Positions 333 through 21,989 of a stretch of 64,000 nucleotides of DNA are shown piece after piece; position 1 is the stretch's first letter, and every line of letters starts with the position of its first letter. The DNA is taken from contig NZ_JAQGEI010000026.1 in the NCBI RefSeq assembly GCF_029017505.1, positions 1-64,000 on the forward strand, read 5' to 3'. Position numbers and translations under genes: made by a program. The stretch comes from Sedimenticola hydrogenitrophicus (GTDB lineage Bacteria; Pseudomonadota; Gammaproteobacteria; Chromatiales; Chromatiaceae). The notes beneath the pieces are model-generated. The model was not told the DNA's origin and made no database searches. It saw only the letters and a list, made by a program, of their open reading frames with translations.

Positions 333-968
333 TCACTCGTTGGCGAGCAGATAACGGACAGCTTCGAGGATCACCGGCGACGGGGTGGCATGGGGAAAGA
401 TAAATCGCAGGACGCCCTGCCGGGAGATCAGGTAGATCACCGAAGAGTGATTTACCGCATAGCCGAAGGATGAGCCCTCCAGTTCCACCTGGTAATAGCG
501 GGCACCGTATTGTGCCGCGACCTGCGCCACCGCCTCCGGACTTCCGGTGATGCCGGTGATTTTCTCATGAAAATAGTCGGCATACTCATCCAGCACGGCA
601 AAGGTATCACGCTCCGGATCGACACTGACAAACAGTCCCTGCACCCGTGCCAGTTCGGCTTCGTCCAGACCATTCAGCACCTGGGTCATCACGGAGAGCG
701 AGGTGGGGCAGACATCCGGGCACTTGGTGTAGCCGAAGTAGAGCAGCACCACCTGGTCGCGGAAATCCTTCAGGGCGACGGATCCGCGACTGGAGTCGAG
801 CTGGAAATCACCCCCGGCGGGAGCCTCGCTGATTGGCGGCGCCTCCCCGGCTGAAGGGAAACCCTCCGCCATTACCGCGGCACTCCAGAAAGAGATAAAA
901 AGCACGATCAACGGCAGTGTAGGGCGGGCACGCTTTTTCTGCCCACGCGGTTCATTCAACCCCCACAT
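333..968 (-). CDS. SCO1/SenC family copper chaperone
   Basis: This 211-aa protein has a thioredoxin fold. SCO proteins bind copper and reduce thiols during copper-centre assembly of respiratory oxidases. An N-terminal hydrophobic segment (about residues 18-34) would anchor or export it. The copper ligands are visible: the CPDVC motif (C83, C87) and a distal histidine in VNHSS (H174). The start fits a strong AGGAGG site 7 nt upstream. It lies downstream of the bd-like oxidase/cytochrome operon in the same direction but is separated from it by 519 bp of repeats, so it may have its own promoter. A copper chaperone is unexpected beside a bd-type oxidase, which has no copper; the cupredoxin-like protein at 10294 is a possible client (inference). 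Confidence 0.93.
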   Translation of the reverse strand: MWGLNEPRGQKKRARPTLPLIVLFISFWSAAVMAEGFPSAGEAPPISEAPAGGDFQLDSSRGSVALKDFRDQVVLLYFGYTKCPDVCPTSLSVMTQVLNGLDEAELARVQGLFVSVDPERDTFAVLDEYADYFHEKITGITGSPEAVAQVAAQYGARYYQVELEGSSFGYAVNHSSVIYLISRQGVLRFIFPHATPSPVILEAVRYLLANE

Positions 969-1048
969 GATTCACCTCCTGTCATTGATGCGGTCACCCG
1001 TGTGCCGTGTCGATACAACGGGACCGCTCCGGGGCAATAGCCAGCAAA

Positions 1049-1163
1049 TGTAGGGTGGATAAGCCGGTAGGCGCATGCCATCCTCAGGTCCGTAAACGGT
1101 ACATCCATGTACCACTCCTCACCGTAGCACTGGTAGATGCGCCTCTGGCTTATCCACCCTACA
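1049..1163. mobile_element. Palindromic MITE-like element (family D)
   Basis: Perfect 17-bp terminal inverted repeats TGTAGGGTGGATAAGCC (1049-1065) and their complement (1147-1163) bound a 115-bp non-coding element. The arms extend inward imperfectly through a shared GGCGCAT. Its size, termini and lack of coding capacity suggest a MITE or REP-type element. This sequence word is common in proteobacterial intergenic regions. Confidence 0.65.
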
Positions 1164-1184
1164 AAATTTTGCGAGTAACTACTC

Positions 1185-1304
1185 ACTGAAAGTCGGCCCG
1201 AAGGGTGAGCGAAGCGAATCATCCAGGAATACCGCAACCATTAAGCCGCCTGGATCCCGGCATACGCCGGGATGACGGTGGTTCTTGGCTTAATAAGTGC
1301 CATT
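1185..1304 (-). mobile_element. Truncated family A MITE, joined to a solo family B end
   Basis: Read on the minus strand, 1304-1185 matches the first half of the complete element at 41013-41215, starting with a GAATGGCACTTA end and breaking off at the ACTTTCAGT word. Immediately beyond the break, GTAACTACTCAC (1175-1186) is the terminal repeat of family B. The intact end is followed by CGCACTGACCC, which resembles the target duplications of the two complete copies. An ATTCCGGC-GCAT-GCCGGAAT palindrome follows at about 1320-1339. The remaining intergenic DNA to 1487 shows nothing else. Confidence 0.65.
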
Positions 1305-1487
1305 CCGCACTGACCCCGTCATTCCGGCGCATGCCGGAATCCAGATGCTCTACACGATTGTCCACCGTCTGTCTTTTAGTTGCGGACATCGATATTGATG
1401 CGGCTCGTGCCTCACCGTCATCCTACGCCTGGATGCAACAACCAATCACGGGGCAGGCGTTGCATTGTGCCCACCCCGCGCGTGCTC

Positions 1488-3920
1488 TCAGCGCTTCTTG
1501 CGCTGTGCCGATACCAACCAAAGTCCGGCGAGAAAAATCAACAGGGCAATACCGATGGGCAGTCCATACACCTTGTAGACATCCATCTCCGGCGGCAGGA
1601 ACAGCCAGTACCAGGTACTCAGGGTATGCTTTGACCCCACCTCCCCGTTACTGCCATCCCAATTGGCGAACGAGACCGGCATGAACTGCCCTTCCTGGAA
1701 TACCATGTCGCCATTCCCCGCATCCCTGGGCCGCTTCATGAGGACACGCCACTTGCCGTCCTGCCAGGCACCTTGCGCCGTGAACGAACCATCGGCATCA
1801 CGCGGTTTCAGCTTTTTATCCGGCCCACTGCCTTCCAGGAGCATGCCCGCGGCATCCCGCGCCGGTTCCACGCTGCCCGCGTTCCAGTACCAGATGGTGG
1901 TGTTGTGCTTGGCGTCGCCGTGCCGATAGAGCGGTTTCTCCACCATGGGCGCGGAGAGGTACCCATCCTCACGGGGGAACTGGATGGCGAAGGCATCCGG
2001 ATGCATTTCAAGATTCTCGTCCTGCAGCTCGGTGAAATACTCGATACCCGGACGGCTCTCGGTGCGGTCATCCATCTCCAGCAGGAAGGCGATCTCCTTG
2101 TCGTCGTAGAGCGCCCGCACCGTCACCGCATCATTCAGTGGCGTGAACAGGCGATCGGCCTTGATGATATTGGGCACCAGTTGAAGCGTGACCGCCGGCG
2201 CCTCCGACCAGCGCTGATCGTCCAGCGTGGCCGGCACGCCACCCGCCACCTTCATGCCCGCCACCACCGGACCATCCTTCGGTTGTACCGTGGTTTCACG
2301 CAGACTGTAGACATAGTTGGCGATATGCCAGCGGTCCTCCAGGCTCACCGGGTCCTTGTTGCCCTCTTCCACCGCGCGATGCGCCGGCATCGGGGTGCCG
2401 GGAATACCGATGGAGAGCCGGGTATAGATATTGCGGATGGTGGCCTCTCGCGATTTCTCACCCTTCTCGCGCGCCTCGGTGGCCCGCCAGGTCCAGGGCT
2501 TGGTCAGGTCACGCGGCCAGATGCGGTTGCCCCAGTCGTCCTGCAACTGCTTGCCGGACATGATGTTACCCCGCCCAGTATTGCCGTGGCACTCGGAACA
2601 GGACTTTTCGAAGGCGACCTTGCCCTTGGCCAGGGACTCTTCGGAATAGGTGATCTGTCCCTCGTGCGGTTCCTGGTCGGTGATCACCCGGAAATCGCTT
2701 TTCGTATAGCGGCCCTCGTCATCGAACGCTGCTTCATCGGCGCCCTCCGGCGGCCAGGCCGATGTGAAATCAAAGCCCTTGATCACCGGCAACAGGCTGC
2801 GGATCTGATCATCCGTCATCATCGAGCCCCAGCCGGGCATGCCGGTTCCGGGCAGGCCGTATTTAATCGTGTTAAACAGATCCTCATCCCTGGGCAGGGT
2901 GGTGCCGGGCGTCGTCTTGTACTTGAACAGGGCCAGACTGAAGTCGCGGGGCTTGGGGTACATACGCTCCGCCGCGATACCATCACCCATGCCCTGCTCG
3001 CCATGGCACACCTCGCAGCGGAATTGGTAGAGCTCCTTGCCCTTTATGCCCGCCCGCTTTGCCAGCACCTTGTCCTTCATCCCGGTAACGGTTTTCGAAA
3101 CCGCCGGATCCCAGATACGCGGCACCTGGCCGTTGTAATCAAAAAGGAAAGTGATGACATTCCAGACATCCTGCTCCTTGAGCATCTCATGCCATACCGG
3201 CATGGCCGAGTTCCAGGGCGTACCCTCTTTCGGCAGGCCCGGTCCACCCGTGGTGATACGCCAGAACAGGAAGGACTCCTGCAACTGGGGAATAATGGTG
3301 GCATCCTGGAAATTGATTGGTTGCGGATTGAATCCGGCCGCATAGTGTCCCTTGCCATCCAGCAGATCGCCATGACAGTAGAAGCAGTTCTGGTAATAGA
3401 CATCCCGGCCGGCGGTGACCGCCGCCTGATATTTTTCCCATCCCGCCTCTTCATCCCGGGCCAGGGTCTGGAGGATCTCTTCCCGCACCGGGTTTTCCAG
3501 CGTTCCCAGGTCAAAGGTCTTGTTGAACACCTTGACCGACGCCGGCGGCGCCGGGTGCACCTGGCGCAACTCCACGGGGGCATCACTGGTGGGCAACACC
3601 ATTCCATATACGGTATAGCCGACAATTGCCGGGACCAGCAACAGCAACGACCAGCGCACCAGCGCCTTGCCGTCATCACGCAGTGTGGAAAGTATCGGCG
3701 CCTTGAATTCAACCCAGCGACTGTCATCAAAGGCGAAATAGAGCAGCACGGCAATCACGGTGATCACCATGTACTGCACCATCAGCGTCTTCGGCATCAG
3801 CGCCGAGTGCGCTTCACCGGTCAGCAGATTGATCAGGACAAAAATATTGTCAAACAGTAGGTAGGCACCGATTATGACCAGCACGGCCTGCCAAAAGGCG
3901 GGGATTCTGATTGCATTCAC
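1488..3920 (-). CDS. Membrane trihaem cytochrome c with C-terminal ethylbenzene-dehydrogenase-type haem domain
   Basis: This 810-aa protein starts with about three membrane segments (residues 10-125). Three c-type haem sites follow: CFYCH (about 178), CEVCH (about 301) and CSECH (about 441). Residues about 553-775 resemble the EB_dh family, the haem b domain of ethylbenzene and dimethyl sulfide dehydrogenase gamma subunits. One C-terminal membrane helix (about 783-803) ends in a basic tail. It overlaps the upstream dihaem cytochrome gene by 4 bp, so the two are probably translationally coupled. The likely role is periplasmic electron transfer to or from the neighbouring bd-like subunit; the electron donor cannot be told from sequence. 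It is last in the oxidase operon. Domain calls are firm; the physiological role is inferred. Confidence 0.88.
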   Translation of the reverse strand: MNAIRIPAFWQAVLVIIGAYLLFDNIFVLINLLTGEAHSALMPKTLMVQYMVITVIAVLLYFAFDDSRWVEFKAPILSTLRDDGKALVRWSLLLLVPAIVGYTVYGMVLPTSDAPVELRQVHPAPPASVKVFNKTFDLGTLENPVREEILQTLARDEEAGWEKYQAAVTAGRDVYYQNCFYCHGDLLDGKGHYAAGFNPQPINFQDATIIPQLQESFLFWRITTGGPGLPKEGTPWNSAMPVWHEMLKEQDVWNVITFLFDYNGQVPRIWDPAVSKTVTGMKDKVLAKRAGIKGKELYQFRCEVCHGEQGMGDGIAAERMYPKPRDFSLALFKYKTTPGTTLPRDEDLFNTIKYGLPGTGMPGWGSMMTDDQIRSLLPVIKGFDFTSAWPPEGADEAAFDDEGRYTKSDFRVITDQEPHEGQITYSEESLAKGKVAFEKSCSECHGNTGRGNIMSGKQLQDDWGNRIWPRDLTKPWTWRATEAREKGEKSREATIRNIYTRLSIGIPGTPMPAHRAVEEGNKDPVSLEDRWHIANYVYSLRETTVQPKDGPVVAGMKVAGGVPATLDDQRWSEAPAVTLQLVPNIIKADRLFTPLNDAVTVRALYDDKEIAFLLEMDDRTESRPGIEYFTELQDENLEMHPDAFAIQFPREDGYLSAPMVEKPLYRHGDAKHNTTIWYWNAGSVEPARDAAGMLLEGSGPDKKLKPRDADGSFTAQGAWQDGKWRVLMKRPRDAGNGDMVFQEGQFMPVSFANWDGSNGEVGSKHTLSTWYWLFLPPEMDVYKVYGLPIGIALLIFLAGLWLVSAQRKKR

Positions 3921-4753
3921 TGTTTCTTCTCCGCCAACAACTTCACGATCATCTCCAACTCCCTGACCGTCATCTTTTCCGCAAAATCCCCCGGCATGGC
4001 GGCCGGAAAGCCCTCCGCGATCACCGCATTGGGATCGATAATGCTCTGCCGAATCTCACCCTCGGACAGGCGTGCGCCGACGCTGCCAAGGCCCGGCCCC
4101 ACCAGGGTATCGTCGCTGTCCAGGGCATGGCATGCCGTGCAGGTATACTTGGCCAATCCCTCTTCTCCACTGGCTGCCGGCGCCGGAGCGGCACCAGCCC
4201 CTCCCGGAGCGGCGTCACTTTTCGCTACTTCCGCCGCCGCATCCGGCGATGGCAAGGCCACCGTGACCTCGTTGCCGTCCTTCGCCTGCAGGTAGGCGAT
4301 GATGGCATCCACCTCGATGTCGCTCAGCTGGATCGGCGGCTTATCGACGGCCGGCATGGGCGACTCGGCGTCATCACTTCCCTTCTTGCCCCAGCCGGCT
4401 ACCACGTAGGCGCTTGGTTCGAGCATCGACTCCAGGATATAGGAAGCCGCATCGGTCGCCTTGCCTTGGTAGCGCTCATCGGCCAGCCGTTCCGTCGTAA
4501 TGGCGACCATGTTCGTGCCCTGCACATCCGGTGCCCGACCCAGGGGTGCCGGTTTGTGGCAGAGTGTGCAAGTGCCCTTGTTGTTGAACAGATCCTCGCC
4601 CATGGCGACAAAGTCATCCATGGTCAACGCACTGAGATCCACCTTGACATCCACCGGTGCGTCGCCCTCTACCTGGGGCAGCATATTGGCCACGCCGGTA
4701 AACACCAGGGTCAGCCCAAGGCTGAAACCCACTGTCTTGATCAATACACTCAT
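3917..4753 (-). CDS. Dihaem cytochrome c, membrane-anchored
   Basis: This 278-aa protein has an N-terminal signal or anchor helix (residues 5-25) and two cytochrome c domains, with CTLCH near residue 61 and CTACH near 204. A Pro/Ala-rich flexible linker (about 165-195) joins them. Conserved GMP/AMP motifs after each haem site are plausible methionine ligands. The start overlaps the end of the bd-like oxidase gene by 4 bp, and the stop overlaps the trihaem cytochrome gene. This strict coupling suggests a stoichiometric complex in which the protein carries electrons between periplasmic donors and the membrane subunit. Confidence 0.9.
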   Translation of the reverse strand: MSVLIKTVGFSLGLTLVFTGVANMLPQVEGDAPVDVKVDLSALTMDDFVAMGEDLFNNKGTCTLCHKPAPLGRAPDVQGTNMVAITTERLADERYQGKATDAASYILESMLEPSAYVVAGWGKKGSDDAESPMPAVDKPPIQLSDIEVDAIIAYLQAKDGNEVTVALPSPDAAAEVAKSDAAPGGAGAAPAPAASGEEGLAKYTCTACHALDSDDTLVGPGLGSVGARLSEGEIRQSIIDPNAVIAEGFPAAMPGDFAEKMTVRELEMIVKLLAEKKQ

Positions 4754-6663
4754 GCCACTCCCTCCATCGCCGCCGCACGAACAGGCACCGGTTGTCTGCT
4801 GCTGCCGAGGTTGGCGATCCAGAACATGAACAGGACAAACAGCAGGAACAGCACGGTCACGATGGTGATCATATTGCCGGCATAACCGATGGTCGGGATG
4901 AAGTTATCTGGCGAGTTATCCTGCATCACCGTATAGACATGCCAGTGGGTCTTGACCGAGGAGCGCACATAGCCCATCAGCCCCATCAACCAGGTAAAGG
5001 CGATGGGCAGCGCAAACAGGGCGTACTGGGCGCGATCGGGAATCCGACCCCAGTGTGACGGCAGGGTCCTGGCGCCCCGGAACATCAGGCTGTCGATCAC
5101 GATACCGGCGATGATGACCACCAGCGTGGAGGCGACCTGCGCCACCGATGAACCCACCTTATAGACCGTATTGGTGAAGTAACCGAAATAGACCCCGAGG
5201 AAGATGACGTTCACGATCGCCACCACGTAGATCGCCACCAGCAAGGCATTGCCGGCAGGCGCCCAGGAGACGGTCGCCACCTTATCCGAACGCCGGTAAA
5301 GCTGGAACGAGAGGAAGGTGACGATCAGCATCAGGTTCACCGCGATGTTCTTCGCCGGCATGATGCCGAGCGGGCCGAGGTAGTGATGATGACTGCCGCC
5401 CAGCGCGGCGATCTCCGTGGCCGACAGCAGTAGCGTGTGAGGCGTTACCCAGATGAGGAAACAGACCACCAGGATCAGGGCGATATATTTGATCAGCCAC
5501 TGATAGCGAGACGAGCCCTCGGTACGCGACATACCGGCCCAGAGATAGTAGTTGGCGGCCAGCAGGATGGTGCCGATCAGCACCGCCTGGACGATAAACA
5601 GCCAGGCCAGGATACCCCCCATGGCGGTGATGCCCATCTGCTGCGAATAGGCATAGATCTCCGCCATCAGCCAGTAGCCGGCGAACGGCAGCGGTAGGAA
5701 AGCCAGCAGGGCAATGAAATTGGAGGTGTAACCCATCCAGTCATAATGCGCCCGCTTCGCCGGATCCCGGGTGCTGAGAAACTTGAAGGCGGCATAGGCA
5801 CCGACCACCGCGCCACCGAAGGCGATATTGGCGATAAACCGATGCAGGTTGACCGGATTCCACAGCGGCCCCTTCATCACCTCCCAGATATTTCCGACAA
5901 TCGCCCCCACTTCGTTCACGCCGGAGGGCGCCATCATGAAGGTGGCCCAGGAGTTGGCCATCACCATGATGGTCATACCGGCACCATTGAGCAGCAGACC
6001 CAGGGTCAGGTGCAACCATTTCAGGTTGCCATAACGCATGGCGTTCCAGCCGTAGTAATAGGTGTAGAGGAAGAAGCTCTCCAGGAAAAAGAGCCCGGCG
6101 TAGACGATCCACTGGGCGCCGAACACCCGCATCATGTAGCCCATGAAATCGGGATAGAGCACAAACAGGGCCAGCGCCAGGGTGCCGCCAAAAATCGCGG
6201 TAATGGAGAAGCCGGTAAGGCTGATCTTCATGAACTCATGCGCCATGTCGTCATAGCGCTCGTCACCCGTGGACTGCCCCACCAGTTCGATAATCAACAC
6301 AAACAGCGGCACCGCCAGCACCAGGGCACCGAAGAAGAGATGCATCTGGGCCAGAATCCACACTACGGCGCGACTGCTGACGCCGATATCGGGATAATCC
6401 TTGCGCGTCGGACGCGGCGCCACGTAGACCGGCGCCTCCTCGGTCGCCACCTCCGCAACCGGTTCGGTTTCCGGCGCGGGCTCTCCCTCGACCCACACCT
6501 GACCCACCGGAGCGATCCGTTGCGCGACGCTCTCGCCGCCCGTGTCCTGGGCCGCCTGCACCATTGCACTCAGCGAGAACCCCAGCAACAGGGTCAGCAG
6601 CATGGCAACCAGCGACGGCTTCCAGCACGACCTGCCGGAAGCAAAATCATTTCTATACATCAT
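4750..6663 (-). CDS. Cytochrome bd-superfamily oxidase subunit I-like protein lacking the quinol-site motif
   Basis: This 637-aa integral membrane protein has a signal-like N-terminus (about residues 18-38), a Glu/Pro-rich periplasmic stretch (about 45-90) and about 13 membrane helices. The first half resembles CydA. His in AQMHLFF fits the haem b595 ligand H19, FFLES keeps the E107 position, and WLMAEIY fits the E445 region. By my alignment the E99 position is not acidic, the H186 (haem b558) position is Ala, and the CydA GRQPW motif after E445 is replaced by YAYSQQ. It is longer than CydA (about 520 aa), and the rest is extra helices. Loss of the quinol motif together with two coupled cytochrome c genes suggests electrons come from cytochrome c, as proposed for bd-like proteins of Nitrospira and related lineages. 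No cydB is present. Oxygen reduction is inferred. Confidence 0.8.
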   Translation of the reverse strand: MMYRNDFASGRSCWKPSLVAMLLTLLLGFSLSAMVQAAQDTGGESVAQRIAPVGQVWVEGEPAPETEPVAEVATEEAPVYVAPRPTRKDYPDIGVSSRAVVWILAQMHLFFGALVLAVPLFVLIIELVGQSTGDERYDDMAHEFMKISLTGFSITAIFGGTLALALFVLYPDFMGYMMRVFGAQWIVYAGLFFLESFFLYTYYYGWNAMRYGNLKWLHLTLGLLLNGAGMTIMVMANSWATFMMAPSGVNEVGAIVGNIWEVMKGPLWNPVNLHRFIANIAFGGAVVGAYAAFKFLSTRDPAKRAHYDWMGYTSNFIALLAFLPLPFAGYWLMAEIYAYSQQMGITAMGGILAWLFIVQAVLIGTILLAANYYLWAGMSRTEGSSRYQWLIKYIALILVVCFLIWVTPHTLLLSATEIAALGGSHHHYLGPLGIMPAKNIAVNLMLIVTFLSFQLYRRSDKVATVSWAPAGNALLVAIYVVAIVNVIFLGVYFGYFTNTVYKVGSSVAQVASTLVVIIAGIVIDSLMFRGARTLPSHWGRIPDRAQYALFALPIAFTWLMGLMGYVRSSVKTHWHVYTVMQDNSPDNFIPTIGYAGNMITIVTVLFLLFVLFMFWIANLGSSRQPVPVRAAAMEGVA

Positions 6664-6684
6664 TGAAAAAACCCCGGTTCTCTA

Positions 6685-6831
6685 TCACTGTGCCGGACTC
6701 AGGTCCATATTCAGCGGCAGCCCCTGAATACTCATCACAAAATGGTCAAGTCCATAGAATGCGGCCAGGACCACCACAAAGGCCATGACAGTCGCCGCAA
6801 CGACCATACCTCTCTGCATATTTTTATCCAC
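6685..6831 (-). CDS. Tiny single-helix membrane protein in the oxidase operon
   Basis: This 48-aa protein starts at GTG (6831) just after a GGAGG site; an internal ATG at codon 5 is an alternative start. Residues about 9-28 form one hydrophobic helix (VVAATVMAFVVVLAAFYGL), followed by a short polar tail. It lies 21 bp before the bd-like gene and 19 bp after another tiny membrane protein. By analogy with CydX or CcoQ it may be a small accessory subunit of the oxidase. No family can be assigned from sequence. Confidence 0.72.
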   Translation of the reverse strand: MDKNMQRGMVVAATVMAFVVVLAAFYGLDHFVMSIQGLPLNMDLSPAQ

Positions 6832-6850
6832 GCAACCTCCTTAACTGTGC

Positions 6851-7006
6851 CTAACCGTGCTGAACAACCACACCGCCGGAGTAGATCAGCAGCCAGTAGA
6901 AGAAAACCAACAAGGCCAGCAGCGTGGCGAGAAACAGCTTTGGCCCCCAGGCTTTTTTTCCTGGATCCCGGACGGTTTCACTATGCTCATCAGGTGCACG
7001 ATTCAT
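6851..7006 (-). CDS. Tiny single-helix membrane protein, first gene of the oxidase operon
   Basis: This 51-aa protein has a polar, charged N-terminus (residues 1-22) and one helix (about 24-42, KLFLATLLALLVFFYWLL), followed by a short tail. The ATG lies just below a GGGGG/GGCTGGG purine-rich stretch. It is the promoter-proximal gene, about 55 nt below the predicted transcription start of the sigma-54-type promoter at 7072-7088. Size, topology and position suggest a small oxidase subunit or assembly factor. Confidence 0.7.
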   Translation of the reverse strand: MNRAPDEHSETVRDPGKKAWGPKLFLATLLALLVFFYWLLIYSGGVVVQHG

Positions 7007-7071
7007 TTTTCCCCCAGCCACACCGCAAAGGTGTTTTCGAATATCTGTTTATGTGAAGCTCCCAAGGCCAG

Positions 7072-7088
7072 AGCAAAATGCAGGCCAA
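7072..7088 (-). promoter_or_regulatory. Candidate sigma-54 promoter of the bd-like oxidase operon
   Basis: On the minus strand the sequence is TTGGCCTGCATTTTGCT. GG and GC are separated by exactly 10 nt, and the -24 (TTGGC) and -12 (TTTGCT) elements are close to the consensus TGGCAC-N5-TTGCW. Predicted transcription starts near 7061, ahead of the first small gene (ATG at 7006). Confidence 0.55.
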
Positions 7089-7326
7089 CACAACATATAC
7101 CGGGCACCTAGGTCGAAAATAATCCACGGATTCCGCGGCTAACCCTTAGATAACCCTGTAACTCGGGCACAATCTGGAAGCGCGCCCGGTAGGCGGGTAT
7201 ATCATCAGATCACCGGTTTCAGACGCGGGAGTACAGAACGAACTATTCACACAACATTTTTCAATGGCATTTTTTATTCAACCGCAGGCGGGGGTGGTGA
7301 CCATTGAGTTTGGGAGGGAGAAAAAG

Positions 7327-7343
7327 GTGAACACTTTGTTCAC
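7327..7343. promoter_or_regulatory. Palindrome between the divergent operons, candidate activator site
   Basis: GTGAAC-ACTTT-GTTCAC is a perfect 6-bp inverted repeat with a 5-nt spacer. It lies between the two divergent sigma-54-type promoters (about 240 and 320 bp away), a distance compatible with an enhancer. The NtrC-type regulator at 20604 is the obvious candidate to bind it (inference). Confidence 0.4.
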
Positions 7344-7444
7344 TCCACGCCGAACTTCCGGCCGCGATTGAACAATTCATGCCACTCAAAAAGGATTGAA
7401 AATACCCGCCGCGGGCCGCAATCGCGGGATCAGTCAAGATTTTT

Positions 7445-7653: not shown

Positions 7654-7663
7654 ATTTTTCAAC

Positions 7664-14003: not shown

Positions 14004-16127
14004 ATGCATGATCTTTACCTGATCGCCATCAACCTGACCCGGCGTTGCAATCTGGCCTGCGAGCATTGCTATATGGATGCCGATGGCCGCGCCAGCGCCG
14101 CCGGCGAGCTCGGCACCGCCGAGGTGACGCAACTGCTCGACGAGATTGCCGCGCGCGGCACCGAGACCATGGTGGTGCTGACCGGCGGCGAACCGCTGCT
14201 AAGACGCGACCTGGAACGGCTGGTGAGCCATGGGAGCCAACTGGGACTGGCCATGGTGGTGGGCACCAACGGGGTGTTGCTGAACGAATCCCGGGTGGTA
14301 TCACTGAAACGGGCCGGCGTCATGGGCATCGGCATCAGTCTCGATTCACTGGAGCCTGACAGCCACGACCGCTTCCGCGGCTGTAACGGCAGTTGGGAAA
14401 AGACCCTGGCCGGAATGGATTTCTGCCGCCGGCATCAGCTACCGTTTCAGGTCCATTTCTCGGTCACCGACCGGAATGCCCATGAGGTGCGGTCGATGAT
14501 CGATTTCACCCGGGCGGCCGGCGCCCATGTGTTGAACATCTTCTTCCTGGTCTGCACCGGGCGCGGCGAGTCCATGTCCGATATCTCTCCGGCCCGCTAC
14601 GAAGCGGTGCTGAACGAACTGGTCGAGGCCCAGGCCAACACCCCCGAACTGCTGATCCGCGCCCGTTGCGCCCCCCATTTCAAGCGGGTGGCCTATGAGC
14701 GCGATCCAGACTCCCCCTTGACACGGGCCCAGGGCTACGAGGGGGGCGGTTGCCTGGCCGGCATCCATTACTGCCGCATCACCCCGGAGGGGGCGGTGAC
14801 CGCCTGCCCCTATATCCCGGATGAGCAGGGCAATATCCGCCAGGAGAGTTTCTGGCGGATCTGGGATCACGCACCGCAGATGCAATCGCTGCGCCAGCCC
14901 ACGCTGACCGGCAAATGCGGCAAATGCGAATACCGCAAACTCTGCGGCGGCTGCCGCGCCCGGCCGCTGGGTATCGCCCGCGCGGCGGAACCGATAGCGT
15001 TACCGTCCGATGCGACGGAGTACCACCTCCTCACCACCGAGCGGCTCGGACATGGCGAGGCCTTGATGCGGGCCGATCCCTGGTGCGGGCACTACCCGAC
15101 CGGCAAGCCGCTGATAGAACCCCTGAACGAGAGCGGGCCTACCACCATAAGCTGGTCTCCCGAGGCGGAACAGCGCCTGGCCCGGGTCCCCGGTTTTTTG
15201 CGCAAGATGGTGCGCAAGCGGGCCGAGGCCCATGCCGTGGAACAGGGGGAATCGCAGGTCACGGTGGCGCACATGAGCGCCCTGGCGGCCAAACGGTTTG
15301 GCGACAACATGCCCGCACGGCCAACCGCTTCCGGGGATCAGGCTACTCCTGGGAATCAGGCCTCAGGGGAGATCCCCCCGGAGTCGCCGGTACGGCGGTT
15401 GGCCTGGACCGCCGAGGCGACGGAGTATCTGCAACAAACCCCCACCTTTCTGCGCGAGGGGGTGTTTGCCGTGGCGGAGGATGTCGCCCGCCAGGAGGGC
15501 CGGCTTGAGGTCAACATCAACCTGCTGCGGCGCCTGGAAGCGGAAGACGATCCGGCGCGCAAGCTGTTCTGGGAGGATCAGGCGGAGGAACTGCTGGAGG
15601 TGGTGCTGGCCGGCCGCGCCCCGCAGGTGGCGCTGTTCGTTCGACCCAGTATGGAGGCGGCCGCCGAACGGGAGGCCAAACGCCGCGATTCGATCGTGGT
15701 CAGCGAGGCCGACGTGGCCGTGGTGATCGCCACCGACATGGCCGGCGTAGAGTGGGACGCGGATGCCCTGGCGCGGGTCGAATCGGCACCGGATTTCGTC
15801 CGTGGCGGGATCAAGAAGGCGGCCGAGTTCGGCGCCCGCCGCGAGGGGCTAAGCCGGATCACCGCCGAGGATCTGACCCGATTCCGCAACCGGGCGATGA
15901 TGCGCGCGGTGCGCCGCATGAAGGGCTTCGGCATGGCCGACCTCGACTTCGACGCCTTCGCCATCGCCCGGGAGCGGGTACCCCGGCTCAAGGGGAATGA
16001 ACAGGCCGTGAAGCGCTTCCAACAGATCCGCTCCTATGTCGAATCGAAACAGGCGCCCGATGGCGGTGGCCTGGGGCTGCTGGACCGTGATCTGCTGGAG
16101 CGGATGCGGGCCGAGCTGAGACGCTGA
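14004..16127 (+). CDS. NirJ/AhbD-like radical SAM protein with four C-terminal PCP_red-like domains
   Basis: This 707-aa protein carries the radical SAM cluster motif CNLACEHC (C15, C19, C22) and a TGGEPLL motif. Residues about 245-330 hold a second cysteine set (GGCLAG, YC, AC, KCGKC, LCGGC) typical of SPASM-type auxiliary clusters. The core (about 1-375) is most like haem-pathway enzymes NirJ (haem d1) and AhbC/AhbD (alternative haem), which are normally about 400 aa. The extra 330 residues contain four PCP_red-like units (about 383-430, 468-513, 522-575, 582-632). No good ribosome binding site precedes the ATG. The hemY-like gene follows 8 bp later. Modification of a haem or porphyrin side chain is the best inference; the exact reaction is unknown. 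Confidence 0.83.
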   Translation: MHDLYLIAINLTRRCNLACEHCYMDADGRASAAGELGTAEVTQLLDEIAARGTETMVVLTGGEPLLRRDLERLVSHGSQLGLAMVVGTNGVLLNESRVVSLKRAGVMGIGISLDSLEPDSHDRFRGCNGSWEKTLAGMDFCRRHQLPFQVHFSVTDRNAHEVRSMIDFTRAAGAHVLNIFFLVCTGRGESMSDISPARYEAVLNELVEAQANTPELLIRARCAPHFKRVAYERDPDSPLTRAQGYEGGGCLAGIHYCRITPEGAVTACPYIPDEQGNIRQESFWRIWDHAPQMQSLRQPTLTGKCGKCEYRKLCGGCRARPLGIARAAEPIALPSDATEYHLLTTERLGHGEALMRADPWCGHYPTGKPLIEPLNESGPTTISWSPEAEQRLARVPGFLRKMVRKRAEAHAVEQGESQVTVAHMSALAAKRFGDNMPARPTASGDQATPGNQASGEIPPESPVRRLAWTAEATEYLQQTPTFLREGVFAVAEDVARQEGRLEVNINLLRRLEAEDDPARKLFWEDQAEELLEVVLAGRAPQVALFVRPSMEAAAEREAKRRDSIVVSEADVAVVIATDMAGVEWDADALARVESAPDFVRGGIKKAAEFGARREGLSRITAEDLTRFRNRAMMRAVRRMKGFGMADLDFDAFAIARERVPRLKGNEQAVKRFQQIRSYVESKQAPDGGGLGLLDRDLLERMRAELRR

Positions 16128-16135
16128 GGAAAATC

Positions 16136-17617
16136 ATGGCGAACCCCCAAGTATTGATTATCGGCGCCGGCATCTCCGGACTCTCGACCGCCTGGTGGCT
16201 GGCGCGGCAAGGCATCGCCGTTGAAGTCTGGGAAGCGGACGGCCGTCCCGGCGGAAAGATCCAGAGCACCCATGAAGCGGGCTACCTCACCGAACGCGCC
16301 GCCGGGCTGCTGGTCAACTTTCGCCCGGAGATCGACCGGCTGGTCGATCAGTGTGGTCTCGCCGGGTCGAAACGCACCCGGCCGGATGACCTGAATCGCT
16401 ATGTGGTGCACCGGGGCCGCCTCACCGCCGTGCCGATGCGGGTCGCCGGCCTGATACACTCGCCGCTGTGGAGTTGGCAGGCCAAGCTGCGCCTGCTGGC
16501 GGAGGGATTCATCCCCCGGGGCGAGCAGCCGGGCGAGAGCGCCAGCCGGTTCATCACCCGGCGCCTGGGCCGCGAGGTATTGGAAACGGCGTTCGATCCC
16601 TTTATCGCCGGCACCCTGGCCTCCGATCCGGCATTGGCCGAGGCCCGGTCGGTGCTGCCGCGCCTGACCGCCCTGGAACAACGTTACGGCAGCATCACCC
16701 TGGGCGTGCTGATCAACAGTCTGCTGAAAAAGAAAAAACGCCGGGCCAACAGCGCCGACACCTTCTCGTTCCAGGGCGGCATGTCCGAGCTGACCGACCG
16801 GCTGAGCCGCGCGCCGGGGGTCAGCATACGCTACCACACGCGGGTAACCGGGATCGAACCCGCCGGGCGTGGCTGGCGGGTCACCGCCCGCTCGGGTACG
16901 GGTACGGATTCGGGCATGGCCGCGCCTGGGCGTCCCTGCCCCTGCGGCATTAGTGAATCCCTTCACGTCGCCACGCCCGCCCTACAGGTCCCCCAACTGG
17001 TGATCACCACACCCGCCGATAGCGCTGCGATGCTGCTGTCGGATCTGGACCGGTCGTTGAGCGGCTTGCTGGCGCAAATAAGTTATGCCCCGGTCTCCAT
17101 CGTGCATCTCGGCATGGATGAACGCCAGGTGGGACACCCCCTGGACGGCACCGGGTTCCTGGTACCCGGGAAGGAAAAGCTGGGATTTAACGGCAACCTG
17201 TGGATGAGCCGCCTGTTTCCCGGCCGTGCCCCCGAGGGCAAGACGCTGCTCACCAGCTATCTGGGCGGGGCGCGTCAGGCCGACAGCATCGGCTGGAGCG
17301 ATGAACGAATCGTCAGCCTGCTGCTCGGCCAGCTGTCGCCACTGATCGGTCTGCAAGGCGAAGCGGATTACATCCGCGTCGACCGTCATCCCCGTGGGTT
17401 GCCGCTCTATCATGGGCAACATCAGGCCCGGGTGGAGGCCATACGCGCGCGCCTGTCGAACCACCCGGGGCTCCATCTGACGGCCAACTACCTGGATGGC
17501 GTCTCGGTCCGGGACCGGATTTTTCAGGGCAGCAGAACGGCCCGGGCGATCCTGGAGAGCCTGCCGCGGGCCACCCTGCAACAGGCCATCCGGACCACCC
17601 ACGCCTTGACGGCATAG
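16136..17617 (+). CDS. hemY: HemY-type protoporphyrinogen oxidase
   Basis: This 493-aa flavoprotein has an N-terminal FAD-binding motif (IGAGISGLSTAWWLA, then ExDGRPGG) and the overall pattern of the oxygen-dependent or HemY/PPOX amine-oxidase superfamily, including a C-terminal NYLDGVSV-type FAD segment. The family oxidises protoporphyrinogen IX (or coproporphyrinogen III) to the porphyrin. The start has a GAGGAA site and lies 8 bp after the radical SAM gene, so the two are co-transcribed. Residues about 262-281 are encoded by a REP-like insertion shared with the UspA/PCP_red gene. Position next to the radical SAM enzyme suggests a dedicated branch of haem synthesis rather than the housekeeping copy; that is inference. 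Confidence 0.85.
   Translation: MANPQVLIIGAGISGLSTAWWLARQGIAVEVWEADGRPGGKIQSTHEAGYLTERAAGLLVNFRPEIDRLVDQCGLAGSKRTRPDDLNRYVVHRGRLTAVPMRVAGLIHSPLWSWQAKLRLLAEGFIPRGEQPGESASRFITRRLGREVLETAFDPFIAGTLASDPALAEARSVLPRLTALEQRYGSITLGVLINSLLKKKKRRANSADTFSFQGGMSELTDRLSRAPGVSIRYHTRVTGIEPAGRGWRVTARSGTGTDSGMAAPGRPCPCGISESLHVATPALQVPQLVITTPADSAAMLLSDLDRSLSGLLAQISYAPVSIVHLGMDERQVGHPLDGTGFLVPGKEKLGFNGNLWMSRLFPGRAPEGKTLLTSYLGGARQADSIGWSDERIVSLLLGQLSPLIGLQGEADYIRVDRHPRGLPLYHGQHQARVEAIRARLSNHPGLHLTANYLDGVSVRDRIFQGSRTARAILESLPRATLQQAIRTTHALTA
16919..16977. repeat. In-frame REP-like insertion, copy 2
   Basis: Second copy of the 59-bp element at 12970-13028, here inside the hemY-like gene and in the same frame. It falls between the substrate and FAD-binding parts of the protein, just before a VPQLVITTP strand. 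Confidence 0.8.
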
Positions 17618-17680: not shown

Positions 17681-18013
17681 ATGACCGCACCACAGGTTTT
17701 AGACAATGCACAACAACCGCCCTTCCGGCCGTTACGGCTGGTGGCGGTGGTGCTGTTGATCCTGCTCGGCATCTCCGGCGCCGCCCAATGGTACTCCCGC
17801 AACGTCACCCTGCCTCGCTATTGCGAGGATCCGGCCACGGTGCTGGAACGGGTACACCGGCTGCTGACCGAGGCGCAACCGGCGGGGGAAGGGGACCGCA
17901 AACCCTACATCATCGCGGCGCGACTTACCTTTCTGATCCCACGGGGCCATGATGAGCCGCTGACCGCTTACCTGAACCGGCTGCAGAGGCATATGGAGCA
18001 ACAATGCCGATAA
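17681..18013 (+). CDS. Small single-helix membrane protein upstream of the kinase
   Basis: This 110-aa protein has a proline-rich cytoplasmic start, one helix (about residues 20-38, LRLVAVVLLILLGISGAA), and a periplasmic C-terminal part with two cysteines (YCED, QQCR) that could pair. It overlaps the histidine kinase gene by 10 bp. No family was recognised. Position suggests an accessory to the sensor kinase or to the haem-related operon. Confidence 0.65.
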   Translation: MTAPQVLDNAQQPPFRPLRLVAVVLLILLGISGAAQWYSRNVTLPRYCEDPATVLERVHRLLTEAQPAGEGDRKPYIIAARLTFLIPRGHDEPLTAYLNRLQRHMEQQCR

Positions 18014-20607
18014 CCCCGCCCATGCCGCAGTCACGCCTGAGCCTGGTGAAAGGGTTCGCAGGCATCTTCATGTCGCTCCTGCTGATGCTGGGAATAGTCG
18101 GTTCGATGCACTATTACACCTACTACACCACCGAGCGCAGCAACCGCGAAGCCAGCGAAAGCCTCAATGTGGACCTGGCCCGACGCATGATCGTCAGCGA
18201 TATCTCCAGCGTGGCCAGCGATCTGATGTTTCTGGCCCGGCATGTCGAACAGCAGGGTCTGTTGCAGGCACCGCGGCACGTCCTGGAACAACGTGTTGCC
18301 CTGGAGTTCTCCGTCTTTGCCGAAGAAAAGAGACTGTTCGATCAGATCCGTTATCTGGACAGGGCCGGCCGGGAGGTTGTGCGGGTCAACTACAATGGCG
18401 GACAGCTGCGCACCGTGCCCCGCGATGAGCTCCAGAACAAGGCGGACCGCTACTATATCCAGGATGTAATGAGCCAATCGCGAGGCGGACTCTACCTCTC
18501 GCCGCTGGATCTCAATATCGAAGATGGAAAAATAGAGTACCCGTTAAAACCGATGATCCGTTTTGCCACCCCGGTATTTGACGATGCGGGGGTAAAACAG
18601 GGCGCCATCATGCTCAACTATTTTGGTGACCGGCTGATCGGCAACTTCACCCAGGCCGCGGCCAACATTGCCGATCATGTCGTACTGGTCAATGAGCAGG
18701 GCTACTGGCTGAAAAGCCTGAACCGAAAAGATGAGTGGGGCTTTATGTTCGGTAGCGACAAGACATTCGCCACCGAACAGCCACGCGCCTGGGATATCAT
18801 CCAGCGATCCGAGAGCGGCCAGTTCCAGACATCCGCGGGACTCTTCACCTTCCACACCGTCTCCCCGCTCAGCGTGGCCAGGCAAACATCGCAACCCGGC
18901 AGCCCGGCGGTCCAGGGCAATCCCCCTGGTCACTGGAAGATCATTGCCCAGGTCTCTTCCCGTGAACTGTCGGCGACGCTGCCGTTTTTCATCCAGCAGC
19001 ATCTGGCGCTCTATCTCGGCATGCTGGGGCTGATTATCATCAGCGCGTTGTTTCTCGCCCACTCACAGTACCACCACCGGCGCACCGATGCCCAACGCGA
19101 GTATGAACAAAGATTCCGCCATACCCTTGAAAACATCGAATTGGTGGCGGTCGCACTGGATCGCCAGGGCCTGATCACCTTCTGTAATGACTATTTTCTG
19201 CGCCTTACCGACTGGAAACGCAAGGATGTCATAGGCAAGGCATGGATAGAGACCTTTATCCCGGACGAATTTAAAGCCGACATGCTGGGCATCATCGACC
19301 GGATGCGCCATCCCGAGCAATTCCCACCCCGCTATGAGGGCCGGGTGCTGGCCCGTGACGGCAGTCTGCTGCTGATCGCATGGAACAACACCCTCTCCTA
19401 TAACCCCGCCGGGGCGGTGATCGGCGTAACCGGTATTGGTGAGGACATCACCGAGCAACGTCGTTCCGAAGAAGAGTTGCGCAAACTGAACCGTGCGGTG
19501 GAACAGAGTCCCAGTGTTGTCATGATCACCAACAGGCAGGGACTGATCGACTATGTCAATCCAAAGTTTACCGAGGTGTCCGGCTATACCCGGGAAGAGG
19601 TGGTCGGCAGAAACCCACGGATTCTGAAGTCCGGAGAAACCAGCAAGGCCGAGTATAAAAATCTTTGGGCAACGGTCTACCGGGGCGAGGAGTGGCGGGG
19701 CGAATTCCATAATCGCCGGAAATCGGGGGAGCTCTATTGGGAGAGTGCCACTATATCCGCTATTCGAAATCCCGAGGGTGAAATCACCCACTTTCTTGCC
19801 GTCAAAGAGGATATTACCGAACATAAGCGGCTCGAAGCGGAAGTTGAGGAGCGCAATCGTGAGCTGTCCAAAAACCAGGCGCTGGCCGCCATGGGGCGCA
19901 TGGCCAGCATGATCGCCCATGACCTGCGCAATCCCCTCTCCTCGGTGAAGATGACGCTGCAGATCCTGGGCAAACAGAACGGAGACCAGGCACTGGCGGA
20001 GACGGACGAATTGCGCCAGATCTCGCTGGAGCAGATCCGCTACATGGAGGAGATCCTTTCCGACATGCTCACCTATTCAAAACCCGATGCGCTGAACCCG
20101 GAATGGATCACCATCGATCGGGTGATCGATATGGCGATCGGCCTGTCACAGCGCAAGATCGAGGAGTTCGATGTCCAGGTTTCGACCCAGTATCATCCGG
20201 GCCTGCCGACCCTTTATGGTGATGCCACCAAACTCCGCCAGGTATTCAGTAACCTCATTACCAACGCCGCCCAGTCGACCGATGGCATCCACAGACCCCG
20301 GGTGGCTATTGATGTCATGGTGGAATTGGGCTTGAGCGGCACCTGCATCCGGGTGGATATCTGCGACAACGGCAATGGCATTGATCCCGAGGAACGGGAA
20401 CGGCTGTTTGAGCCGTTTTTCACCACCCGAACCAAGGGAACGGGGCTCGGTCTGGCGATTGTCAAACGCATCCTCGATCAACATCGGGCCGCCATCGAAC
20501 TCCTGCCCAATGAACCGCAGGGCACCCGGGTCTCCGTGGTATTACCCATTTCACCGAATTCCATTCAGCAAGATGAAGAGCAATCAGCGGAGAACAGCCC
20601 GGCATGA
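18004..20607 (+). CDS. Sensor histidine kinase with periplasmic double-Cache-like domain and two PAS domains
   Basis: This 867-aa protein has a first helix at about 16-38, a large periplasmic domain (about 40-330) with LDRAGREVVRVNYN and FATPVFDDAGVKQGAIMLNY strands typical of Cache sensors, and a second helix (about 336-356). Two PAS domains follow (about 368-490 and 495-620), the second with a PAC-like segment. The HisKA box is MIAHDLRNPLSS (His near residue 639), and the ATPase domain (about 735-855) shows DNGNGID and GTGLGLAI. It ends 4 bp inside the response regulator gene, so they form a coupled pair. The signal is periplasmic and unknown. It is likely to control the adjacent oxidase/haem genes through the sigma-54 activator. 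Confidence 0.92.
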   Translation: MPITPPMPQSRLSLVKGFAGIFMSLLLMLGIVGSMHYYTYYTTERSNREASESLNVDLARRMIVSDISSVASDLMFLARHVEQQGLLQAPRHVLEQRVALEFSVFAEEKRLFDQIRYLDRAGREVVRVNYNGGQLRTVPRDELQNKADRYYIQDVMSQSRGGLYLSPLDLNIEDGKIEYPLKPMIRFATPVFDDAGVKQGAIMLNYFGDRLIGNFTQAAANIADHVVLVNEQGYWLKSLNRKDEWGFMFGSDKTFATEQPRAWDIIQRSESGQFQTSAGLFTFHTVSPLSVARQTSQPGSPAVQGNPPGHWKIIAQVSSRELSATLPFFIQQHLALYLGMLGLIIISALFLAHSQYHHRRTDAQREYEQRFRHTLENIELVAVALDRQGLITFCNDYFLRLTDWKRKDVIGKAWIETFIPDEFKADMLGIIDRMRHPEQFPPRYEGRVLARDGSLLLIAWNNTLSYNPAGAVIGVTGIGEDITEQRRSEEELRKLNRAVEQSPSVVMITNRQGLIDYVNPKFTEVSGYTREEVVGRNPRILKSGETSKAEYKNLWATVYRGEEWRGEFHNRRKSGELYWESATISAIRNPEGEITHFLAVKEDITEHKRLEAEVEERNRELSKNQALAAMGRMASMIAHDLRNPLSSVKMTLQILGKQNGDQALAETDELRQISLEQIRYMEEILSDMLTYSKPDALNPEWITIDRVIDMAIGLSQRKIEEFDVQVSTQYHPGLPTLYGDATKLRQVFSNLITNAAQSTDGIHRPRVAIDVMVELGLSGTCIRVDICDNGNGIDPEERERLFEPFFTTRTKGTGLGLAIVKRILDQHRAAIELLPNEPQGTRVSVVLPISPNSIQQDEEQSAENSPA

Positions 20608-21989
20608 GCAAAATCCTTATTGTCGATGACGACGTCGCCAGCTGCCGGACACTGCAGGTTCATCTGCGCAACCAGGGACATAATGTGGAGATCGCCCACA
20701 GTGTCGACCAGGGTCTTGCGGCGGCAGAGACCAAACCCGACCTGGTCATTCTGGATATCCGCATGCCGGGCCGTTCCGGGCTGGAGGGCATTCCCGATTT
20801 CAAAACCGCCCTGCCCCAGGCCAGGATCATCATGATCACCGCCTTCCACGATATGGAGAGCACCATCGAGGCGATGCAGAGCGGGGCGGATGATTATATT
20901 CACAAACCGATCGATATCGACGAACTGGAAAGTGCCATTGCCAAGCTGATGGTACCGGTCCAGGAGAGTGAAAATCTGTTGCCGGCGCATATCGGCGATA
21001 CCAGCAGCCTCTCCATGGTCGGGCGCAGCCGGGGGATGAAAGAGGTATTCAAGACCATCGGCATGGTGGCAAAAAGCCCGGCCACGGTACTTATTACCGG
21101 CGAATCCGGCACAGGCAAAGAGTTGGTGGCACGCGCCATTCACCGTTCGGGAGAGAACCCGGGTGGTCCCTTTGTCGCTGTCAATTGCGCGGCACTGGTG
21201 GAAACCCTGCTCGAATCCGACATGTTTGGCCACGAGAAGGGGGCCTTTACCGGTGCGGTCGGCCGGCAGGAAGGTAAATTTTCCCTGGCTAGGGGGGGCA
21301 CCATCTTTCTCGATGAGGTGGGTGAGATGTCCCCCGCCATGCAGGCCAAGCTGCTGCGGGTGCTGCAGTACAAGGAGTACACCCCATTGGGAGCAAAACA
21401 GGCCCAGACAACCGATGCGCGAGTCATCACCGCCACCAATGTCAATCTCGAGGAAGCCGTGAAGGCCGGTAAGTTCAGGGAGGACCTCTATTACCGGCTA
21501 CAGGTGGTCAACATCCATCTGCCACCCTTGCGGGAACGAAAAGAGGACCTGATGGACCTGATCCAGGTGCTGCTTGGGCGTATCAACAAGGAACTGCATC
21601 GGAATGTGACCCACATTTCCCAAGAGGTGCTGGATTGCCTGGAACGCTATGACTGGCCGGGCAATGTGCGGGAACTGGAGAATGTGCTGATGAAGAGTAT
21701 CGCCCTCTCGCATGGCGATGCGCTTTCCCGCGACCTGCTGCCTCCGCCGCTGGATAACCTGTCCCGAAAAGACCGCAATAACCATGCGAAAGCCCCGGCA
21801 GATCAAAGCCTTGAAGAGATGGAGGCAACCCATATAGCCAGGGTCCTGGAGGCAACCCAATGGCACAAGGGTCGGGCCTGTGAGATTCTCGGGATCTCCC
21901 GTCCACGTTTGCGAAGGATGATAAGGCACTACCAACTGACCCCTCCGGAACATATCGTGATTGAGCGGGAAGAGGAGGATTTTGAGTAA
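20604..21989 (+). CDS. NtrC-family sigma-54-dependent response regulator
   Basis: This 461-aa protein has a receiver domain (1-120) with acidic pocket D8-D9-D10, phospho-acceptor D51 and K102-region KPID. The AAA+ domain has Walker A GESGTGKE (about 167-174), the sigma-54 contact loop GAFTGA (about 213-218) and GTIFLDEVGEM Walker B. A Fis-type helix-turn-helix ends the protein (about 415-450, GRACEILGISRPRLRRM). It overlaps the kinase gene by 4 bp. The candidate sigma-54 promoters at 7072-7088 and 7664-7679 make the divergent oxidase and maturation operons its likely targets. Confidence 0.94.
   Translation: MSKILIVDDDVASCRTLQVHLRNQGHNVEIAHSVDQGLAAAETKPDLVILDIRMPGRSGLEGIPDFKTALPQARIIMITAFHDMESTIEAMQSGADDYIHKPIDIDELESAIAKLMVPVQESENLLPAHIGDTSSLSMVGRSRGMKEVFKTIGMVAKSPATVLITGESGTGKELVARAIHRSGENPGGPFVAVNCAALVETLLESDMFGHEKGAFTGAVGRQEGKFSLARGGTIFLDEVGEMSPAMQAKLLRVLQYKEYTPLGAKQAQTTDARVITATNVNLEEAVKAGKFREDLYYRLQVVNIHLPPLRERKEDLMDLIQVLLGRINKELHRNVTHISQEVLDCLERYDWPGNVRELENVLMKSIALSHGDALSRDLLPPPLDNLSRKDRNNHAKAPADQSLEEMEATHIARVLEATQWHKGRACEILGISRPRLRRMIRHYQLTPPEHIVIEREEEDFE

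Follow-up and report, generated by a model that had tools for sequence, protein, structure and literature searches.

A bd-superfamily protein with c-type cytochromes co-occurs with a candidate tetrapyrrole-tailoring gene set in Sedimenticola and other sulfur- and iron-oxidizing Proteobacteria

The 64,000-nucleotide stretch of Sedimenticola hydrogenitrophicus DNA analyzed here (the window, to whose full length all window coordinates refer; contig 26 of host genome G000) carries at positions 333-21989 two divergent gene groups that are separated by 1,057 bp. The leftward group, on the minus strand, encodes in order a bd-superfamily (bd-like) subunit, a diheme cytochrome c, a triheme cytochrome with an EB_dh domain, and an SCO protein. 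The rightward group, on the plus strand, encodes a HEAT-repeat protein, a 247-amino-acid (aa) secreted protein, a 39-aa peptide, a UspA protein and a radical SAM protein that each end in PCP_red repeats (UspA-PCP_red and rSAM-PCP_red; the module PCP_red genes), HemY, a 110-aa protein, a sensor kinase, and a sigma-54 regulator. On balance, we favor reading both groups as one unit, consisting of a cytochrome c-linked bd-superfamily reductase and a set of proteins that matures its tetrapyrrole, and the gene content tips the scale slightly toward a heme dedicated to this complex. The fullest form of the proposal is tentative and somewhat short of probable: an undescribed heme variant, made by HemY and the PCP_red-bearing radical SAM protein and delivered by UspA-PCP_red, would be the cofactor at the active site of a c-linked, bd-like enzyme that reduces O2 or NO and is encoded by a cassette that has spread through sulfur- and iron-oxidizing Proteobacteria and that in some lies beside a clade III N2O reductase. 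All of the genes named in the two groups by a first-pass annotation of the sequence were recovered in their places by Pfam and NCBIfam searches and by counts of CxxCH motifs; the genes for the 247-aa protein and the 39-aa peptide, between HEAT and UspA, were missing from its gene list.

The co-occurrence expected from the functional link proposed in that annotation was borne out by the distribution of the genes, which co-occur and stay linked across several proteobacterial classes with some exceptions. Among 93 relatives, a strong match to the bd-like protein (E < 1e-200) was found in 13, all of which hold the module PCP_red genes (Fisher p 4e-14); 35 relatives have some match, and the 22 of these whose match had E 1e-10 or weaker were set aside and taken to contain ordinary CydA, and 20 other genomes with PCP_red were taken, by frame length, as BchB-like or unrelated. 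Two further relatives (40% and 84% complete) hold the module PCP_red genes without bd. The rSAM-PCP_red protein (E <= 1e-63) is present in 15 of the 93, the same genomes as those with module PCP_red, and HemY in 19, namely, these 15 and four with weaker matches; UspA-PCP_red was not seen in the fragmented assemblies G012 and G020, which were counted on rSAM fragments alone. HemY and the module radical SAM protein are therefore missing from most sister genomes, which gives new support to a dedicated set. A class-wide sample of 369 genomes contained the bd protein (E <= 1e-30) in 16, PCP_red in 14 of these 16, and homologs of both UspA-PCP_red and rSAM-PCP_red in all 14 loci. Across the family of the Gallionella metagenome-assembled genome (MAG) G106 (n = 150, E < 1e-100), 15 genomes contain both bd and UspA-PCP_red, 4 bd only, 2 UspA-PCP_red only, and 129 neither (p 3e-15); the counts for bd, UspA-PCP_red, and NosZ in this family were treated as one 150-genome set, and the genome handles agree where listed.

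A scan of named genomes found 226 places encoding a relative, of which 80 were kept. Carriers included Sedimenticola, Thiodiazotropha, tubeworm symbionts, relatives of Beggiatoa, Thiothrix, Gallionella, Ferrigenium, Mariprofundus, a member of the Parvularculaceae, and many gammaproteobacterial MAGs, with homologs in Sedimenticola hydrogenitrophicus SB48 that are 99% (bd protein) and 93% (UspA-PCP_red) identical to those of the window. In 47 of the 80 loci the fetched stretch includes the bd gene; among the remaining 33 genomes the gene was found elsewhere in 25 (in three as fragments only, one of the three weak) and not at all in 8. Co-occurrence and linkage extend over gamma- and betaproteobacteria and, in Mariprofundus and the Parvularculaceae, over zeta- and alphaproteobacteria. 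Plasmid searches returned 497 records for the radical SAM protein, each with less than 60% identity and with a match over less than 80% of the query, and no record for the bd protein.

The two gene groups also remain associated through rearrangement. In the 47 named loci the bd gene is divergent from the tailoring genes in 37, upstream on the same strand in 9, and downstream in 1, and the groups lie about 12 kb apart in G041, about 13 kb apart in G071, and on separate contigs in G019, in which one contig carries a window-type UspA/rSAM pair and another carries a bd gene of 57% identity with HemY and a clade III NosZ gene. A tree of all 41 clean bd proteins contains two deep groups, each linked to the same tailoring genes. 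Even the divergent bd proteins of G354, G359, and G574 (E 1e-164 to 1e-191) have UspA-PCP, rSAM-PCP, and a HemY-like gene of 31 to 43% identity nearby. A second bd-like cluster in G246, G461, G559, and G109 contains an arsenite-oxidase-type molybdenum gene together with HEAT; the G246 gene passes TIGR02693 and the other three were found by their likeness to it, and HemY is present in the G246 cluster as well, along with a regulator that shares 67% identity with that of the window. These paralogous clusters (L187 2322-19961, L189, L215, and L217) encode a bd-like protein of 720 to 750 aa, HEAT, and c-type cytochromes, and the L187 cluster adds HemY and a similar kinase/regulator pair. In one genus (G327 and G447; L221, L223, and L227), UspA-PCP and rSAM-PCP were observed away from the oxidase locus: G447 has divergent copies on another contig, and no PCP_red match was found in G327. 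Aside from the exceptions weighed below, the distribution and linkage of the genes strongly support a functional link between the bd-like complex and the tailoring genes.

PCP_red is otherwise a porphyrin-reductase domain. In the host genome its model, PF08369 (curated cut-off, 32.5 bits), matches at seven places, all of them in the 759-aa UspA-PCP_red protein (11467-13746, plus strand; two Usp stretches, PF00582 118 bits, followed by the repeats) and the 707-aa rSAM-PCP_red protein (14004-16127, plus strand; radical SAM and SPASM domains, PF04055 and PF13186, followed by the repeats), with whole-protein scores of 158.8 and 120.3 bits, respectively. Five of the seven exceed the cut-off, in keeping with the first-pass assignment of the repeats to this family. 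The nine domains counted there are reached with a repeat model built from orthologs, which places five repeats in UspA-PCP_red (at 361, 441, 531, 634, and 695) and four in rSAM-PCP_red (at 384, 468, 523, and 584). The ninth (523-570) is marginal (i-E 0.16), and the predicted structure of the radical SAM protein (pTM 0.54) contains a fourth helical repeat at 523-570, so that a total of nine, one of them marginal, is likely. Among solved structures, the repeats of UspA-PCP_red match chains of protochlorophyllide reductase (2xdq, 2kru, and 2ynm; E 1e-4 to 8e-4). In a Pfam scan the only domains of the two proteins besides PCP_red were of the Usp or radical SAM type, with no nitrogenase-like catalytic domain, and a photosynthetic remnant is ruled out by the lack of any further PF08369 match in the genome. 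Shorter forms of the radical SAM protein occur in G071 (422 aa, with one PF08369 match) and in Mariprofundus (a 455-aa frame). PCP_red frames of 326 to 355 aa were also seen in G033, G039, G051, and G056, each of which has longer PCP_red frames too.

The best NCBIfam matches of the radical SAM protein are TIGR04055 (NirJ2, 302 bits) and TIGR04545 (AhbD, 281 bits). It contains the CxxxCxxC motif of radical SAM enzymes and the cysteines of the C-terminal cluster; Cys15/19/22 and Cys250/268/305/308/314/317 are invariant in 12 of 12 sequences, and in an alignment of 38 rows (the window protein and 37 of 69 homologs) the first three are kept in at least 90% of the rows and the remaining six in every row. 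Another radical SAM gene of the host (395 aa, 30% identical to the module protein, at G000:C62) probably encodes NirJ and has a propeller-type hit close to it on the same contig; the presence of this separate NirJ-like homolog makes it unlikely that the module protein is the heme d1 enzyme of the host. The 493-aa HemY (16136-17617, plus strand; FAD protoporphyrinogen oxidase family) was correctly named in the first-pass annotation (TIGR00562 229 bits, against a cut-off of 97.85) and is the single match in its genome at E <= 1e-10; 25 of 62 homologs were aligned with it. At the same threshold no match was found in 74 of the 78 relatives that lack the module, so HemY is presumably not their protoporphyrinogen oxidase and is unlikely to be the housekeeping enzyme of the group. 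Given that most of these relatives lack HemY and that a further radical SAM homolog exists elsewhere in the host, the PCP_red/rSAM/HemY set is probably not a housekeeping heme pathway.

The 637-aa bd-like subunit (4750-6663, minus strand) belongs to the cytochrome bd superfamily by PF01654 (62.1 bits, cut-off 26.2). Its AlphaFold model (pLDDT 71.5, pTM 0.73) has 14 long helices and one N-terminal helix, and each of its ten best Foldseek matches is a chain of a cytochrome bd (E 1.1e-7 to 1.4e-4). In 33 of 33 aligned rows (the window protein and 32 of the 41 clean homologs), His 108, 218, 274, 306, 409, 426, and 575 and Glu195 are invariant. His108 and Glu195 align with His21 and Glu108 of the solved structure 5doq, the place of 5doq Glu101 is taken by an invariant Tyr188, and 5doq His186 aligns with Arg275; because the invariant His274 is one residue from the aligned place, a His186-type heme ligand may nevertheless be kept. 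The quinol-binding loop of cytochrome bd carries a motif of the GRQPW type, and QPW occurs in 0 of the 33 rows. Pfam or NCBIfam scans of 12 cluster proteins, the 39-aa peptide not among them, found no CydB. The missing loop motif and the lack of a CydB partner among the scanned cluster proteins rule out a canonical bd oxidase.

The operon also encodes cytochromes. A 278-aa diheme cytochrome c (3917-4753, minus strand; 2 CxxCH motifs, PF00034 and PF13442) is followed by an 810-aa cytochrome (1488-3920, minus strand) with 3 CxxCH motifs (PF13442 and PF00034) and a C-terminal EB_dh domain (PF09459) that resembles NxrC and the gamma subunits of type II DMSO reductases; it scores 73.6 bits against TIGR03477, below the cut-off of that family, and is split into two separate genes in Gallionella-type loci. 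The bd, diheme, and 810-aa genes overlap by 4 nt each. The gene for the 211-aa SCO1/SenC copper chaperone-like protein (333-968, minus strand; PF02630 139.6 bits) lies 519 nt beyond and would belong to the same operon; SCO adjoins the cytochrome genes in the loci of seven relatives (L067, L069, L073, L079, L082, L083, and L084). Judged from these sequences, the bd-like complex probably reduces O2 with cytochrome c as the donor, and NO is possibly a substrate.

Several observations weigh against a dedicated heme for this complex and are taken together here with the alternatives on which they bear. The first concern distribution. PCP_red is absent beside bd in G427 (97% complete) and G327 (90%), and bd occurs without UspA-PCP_red in four assemblies of the G106 family (1.6 to 2.0 Mb). 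Conversely, the module genes occur without bd in eight named genomes, one of which is L101 (4.2 Mb; symbiont of Lamellibrachia barhami), and in G179, where a 309-kb contig ends about 7 kb from the locus. Relatedness among the sampled genomes means that the Fisher values overstate how independent the counts are, and the distances measured pairwise for bd, UspA-PCP, rSAM, and HemY across 31 loci show a partial correlation only (r 0.51 to 0.83). The L101 locus (1-9236) lacks bd and HEAT, has a shortened 247-aa gene, and contains DNA noted by eye as repeat-rich and CRISPR-like; UspA-PCP, rSAM-PCP, HemY, kinase, and regulator are retained.

Further points of this kind concern the tailoring enzymes. 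The NirJ/AhbD type given to the radical SAM protein in the first-pass annotation holds for its best matches, but both scores lie under the curated 500-bit cut-offs of the two families, and by fold it lies nearest to SPASM enzymes that act on peptides, among them SkfB, PqqE, and SuiB. These points, together with the small conserved peptide encoded in the same cluster, favor an explanation by protein chemistry, in which the SPASM radical SAM protein would modify a subunit (the 39-aa peptide or a cytochrome), the PCP_red repeats would be protein-protein modules, and HemY would be an accessory protoporphyrinogen oxidase. We consider this unlikely, as the best sequence families of the enzyme are nevertheless NirJ2 and AhbD, HemY travels with the rSAM/PCP_red set, the repeats match a porphyrin reductase among solved structures, and the radical SAM gene also occurs in loci without the 247-aa gene (the peptide was sought only behind that gene, in 41 loci). 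A second HemY-like gene is present in G032 and G053. HemY requires O2 and AhbD-type enzymes do not, and the cluster contains a two-component system, as might be expected if HemY and the radical SAM protein formed a second general heme pathway for a changing oxygen supply that lies beside the oxidase only through co-induction. The close co-occurrence with the bd protein across several lineages renders this explanation very improbable, as does the lack of HemY and the radical SAM protein in most sister genomes, where heme is presumably made all the same.

The match of the bd-like subunit to the bd fold is partial (Foldseek TM-score by query length, 0.30 to 0.40), and the accessible part of PMC3578206 proposes other roles for the family. 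One of these, put forward for Nitrospina, is reverse electron transport (PMC3578206 and PMC6606698, as far as accessible), in which the complex would not be a terminal reductase and would join periplasmic donors to quinone. EB_dh is of the gamma-subunit type of molybdenum enzymes, and two of the divergent bd loci, in G354 (L210 4353-7892) and G574 (L209 12425-15955), keep on the strand of the cluster a DMSO-reductase-type (NarG/NXR-like) molybdenum enzyme of about 1,180 aa, whose gene either separates the cytochrome genes from the tailoring genes or lies next to them; the G354 protein fell under the family cut-offs in the scan, and the G574 protein was outside it. Set against this, the quinol-loop motif is missing from 33 of 33 rows, and the invariant His108 and Glu195 align with heme-site residues of a solved CydA. 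We therefore rate a quinone-linked role as improbable and continue to favor a c-linked reductase with its own tetrapyrrole set.

A further alternative arises from N2O reductase. Clade III NosZ of the lactonase type (NF052460, >700 bits in all 11 scanned) is encoded upstream of UspA-PCP in 11 of the 80 named loci (L112, L114, L117, L119, L132, L149, L151, L156, L157, L160, and L162), which belong to Gallionella relatives, Thiothrix, Mariprofundus, and a betaproteobacterium. In the G106 family all 11 genomes with NF052460 over the cut-off hold UspA-PCP (n = 150), including both UspA-PCP genomes that lack bd, a pattern that also counts against a heme reserved for the bd-like complex; six of the 17 UspA-PCP genomes have no clade III NosZ, and all six have bd. 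The tailoring set might thus serve clade III NosZ too. This co-location therefore leaves room for a role in NO or N2O handling, in which the bd-like subunit would be an NO reductase or the set would serve N2O reductase in denitrifying lithotrophs. The clade III NosZ gene in the bd/HemY region of G019 fits such a role, as does the position of bd-like clusters adjoining nitrite oxidoreductase in other bacteria (PMC3578206 and PMC6606698, in the parts accessible). However, NF052460 exceeds its cut-off in only 1 of the 93 relatives, compared with 13 for the bd protein, and Sedimenticola-type loci have a different copper-type protein in the place of NosZ. The window genome has no NF052460 match over the cut-off, its best being a 774-aa frame of canonical NosZ size at 145 bits. 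The accessible part of a Gallionellaceae pangenome study reports nosZ as not detected (PMC10734462). We regard an NO/N2O explanation of the set as rather unlikely.

For the favored unit of c-linked reductase and tetrapyrrole set, we infer the cofactor, substrate, electron path, and regulation as follows. Electrons from lithotrophic donors would pass to the diheme and triheme c/EB_dh cytochromes, perhaps via a copper-type protein served by SCO, and from the cytochromes to the bd-like subunit, whose conserved heme core would reduce O2 at low tension or possibly NO. HemY would oxidize a porphyrinogen, and the AhbD/NirJ-like radical SAM protein would alter porphyrin or iron-porphyrin side chains. 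The tetrapyrrole would be held by the PCP_red repeats of the UspA and radical SAM proteins and brought to the apo-subunit by UspA-PCP_red.

The last two genes of the rightward group, which overlap by 4 nt, encode an 867-aa sensor histidine kinase (18004-20607, plus strand; PF21623 sensor, PAS, HisKA, and HATPase) and a 461-aa sigma-54 response regulator of the NtrC type (20604-21989, plus strand; NtrC/AtoC-type NCBIfam matches), and together they would switch both divergent operons. Of the 37 divergent loci, 28 were compared, and in 23 of these sigma-54-like sites lie in the interval from bd to HEAT, versus 1.84 expected from mononucleotide shuffles, which preserve single-base content only. 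Twelve of the 28 have such a site on each strand. In the window, a sigma-54 (-24/-12)-like site with two mismatches (7664-7679, plus strand) lies 41 nt before HEAT and the other strand has no site of that quality; a window-wide scan was near chance and this site is not significant by itself, its support being the comparison over divergent loci. Sigma-70-like sites were fewer than in the shuffles.

The remaining genes of the rightward group, all on the plus strand, are less readily placed. The 846-aa HEAT-repeat protein (7721-10261; PBS-lyase-like repeats, PF13646 203.9 bits) has a weak likeness to CpcE/NblB, far under the NCBIfam cut-offs. The 247-aa secreted beta-sandwich protein (10294-11037; PF14686 above and PF13620 at the cut-off) has homologs in 46 of the 80 named loci, and a His/Cys/Met-containing motif near its C-terminal part, judged by eye, suggests that it binds copper. 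The open reading frame (ORF) of the 39-aa single-transmembrane peptide (11038-11157) begins directly after the stop codon of the 247-aa gene. A hydrophobic short ORF follows the 247-aa gene in all 41 loci examined of the 46 that have it; 40 of the 41 are alike by eye (35 to 47 aa, single-transmembrane), and differences at codon positions 1/2/3 number 616/455/1014 over 73 pairs, mostly at the third position. The peptide is a candidate small subunit of the complex, CydX/CcoQ-like by size only. The 110-aa protein (17681-18013) has a hydrophobic N-terminal segment, no Pfam or NCBIfam match, and homologs in 45 of the 80 named loci. Gaps of 309 and 257 nt flank UspA-PCP_red. Long inverted repeats, possibly small mobile or REP-like elements, were noted in the gaps that precede HEAT (7469-7637) and UspA-PCP (11257-11335), with arms of 24 nt (perfect) and 28 nt (89%).

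The bd-like complexes found beside nitrite oxidoreductase are without an assigned function in the accessible parts of the 2013 and 2019 papers (PMC3578206 and PMC6606698). The module supplies proteins that fit the same description in named sulfur oxidizers, including strain SB48, and in iron oxidizers, together with a specific cofactor hypothesis. If the heme is indeed new, it would add to the short list of respiratory hemes, and the scheme, if true, would provide a function for nonphotosynthetic PCP_red proteins. The association of the set with clade III NosZ in relatives of Gallionella is relevant to sinks of N2O in iron-rich waters.

The first-pass annotation had proposed a candidate new respiratory system, a claim that can be kept in part but goes too far for the oxidase half. 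A bd-like protein with two c-type cytochromes and an NxrC-like protein has been described in Nitrospira, Nitrospina, and anammox bacteria, without known function (PMC3578206 and PMC6606698, as far as accessible), and an OR-N class of the bd superfamily has been described (PMC10839748, likewise). Compared by description only, the window cluster resembles these in its 14 helices, lack of a Q-loop, c-type cytochromes, and NxrC/EB_dh-type cytochrome, and cupredoxin-like genes are reported for the described clusters in the same parts of the literature; the oxidase half is thus, by sequence features, one that belongs to or lies near a known uncharacterized bd-like type. Unlike them, the window cluster lacks nitrite oxidoreductase (the rest of the host genome was not searched for one), and the accessible parts of the three papers do not mention HemY, radical SAM, or PCP_red for those clusters. 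The tailoring set and its tie to a bd-like complex were not found by our searches of the open-access literature, and the tetrapyrrole set looks to be the new part of the system.

With canonical cytochrome bd (CydAB, qOR), the bd-like subunit shares the PF01654 heme core and the His108/Glu195 places and differs in the absence of Q-loop and CydB, in Tyr188 at the Glu101 place, and in the c-type cytochromes of its operon. The module radical SAM protein resembles AhbD (heme b synthase) and NirJ (heme d1) in its best NCBIfam matches and its conserved radical SAM and auxiliary cysteines, whereas its scores below both cut-offs and its C-terminal PCP_red array set it apart. The PCP_red domain is shared with BchB/ChlB of dark-operative protochlorophyllide reductase but is fused here to UspA or radical SAM without the nitrogenase-like catalytic domain. 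Respiratory oxidases and reductases with heme-tailoring enzymes of their own are known in heme A synthase with aa3 oxidase and in the NirJ set with NirS; the window cluster differs from both in its enzymes and in the superfamily of its oxidase.

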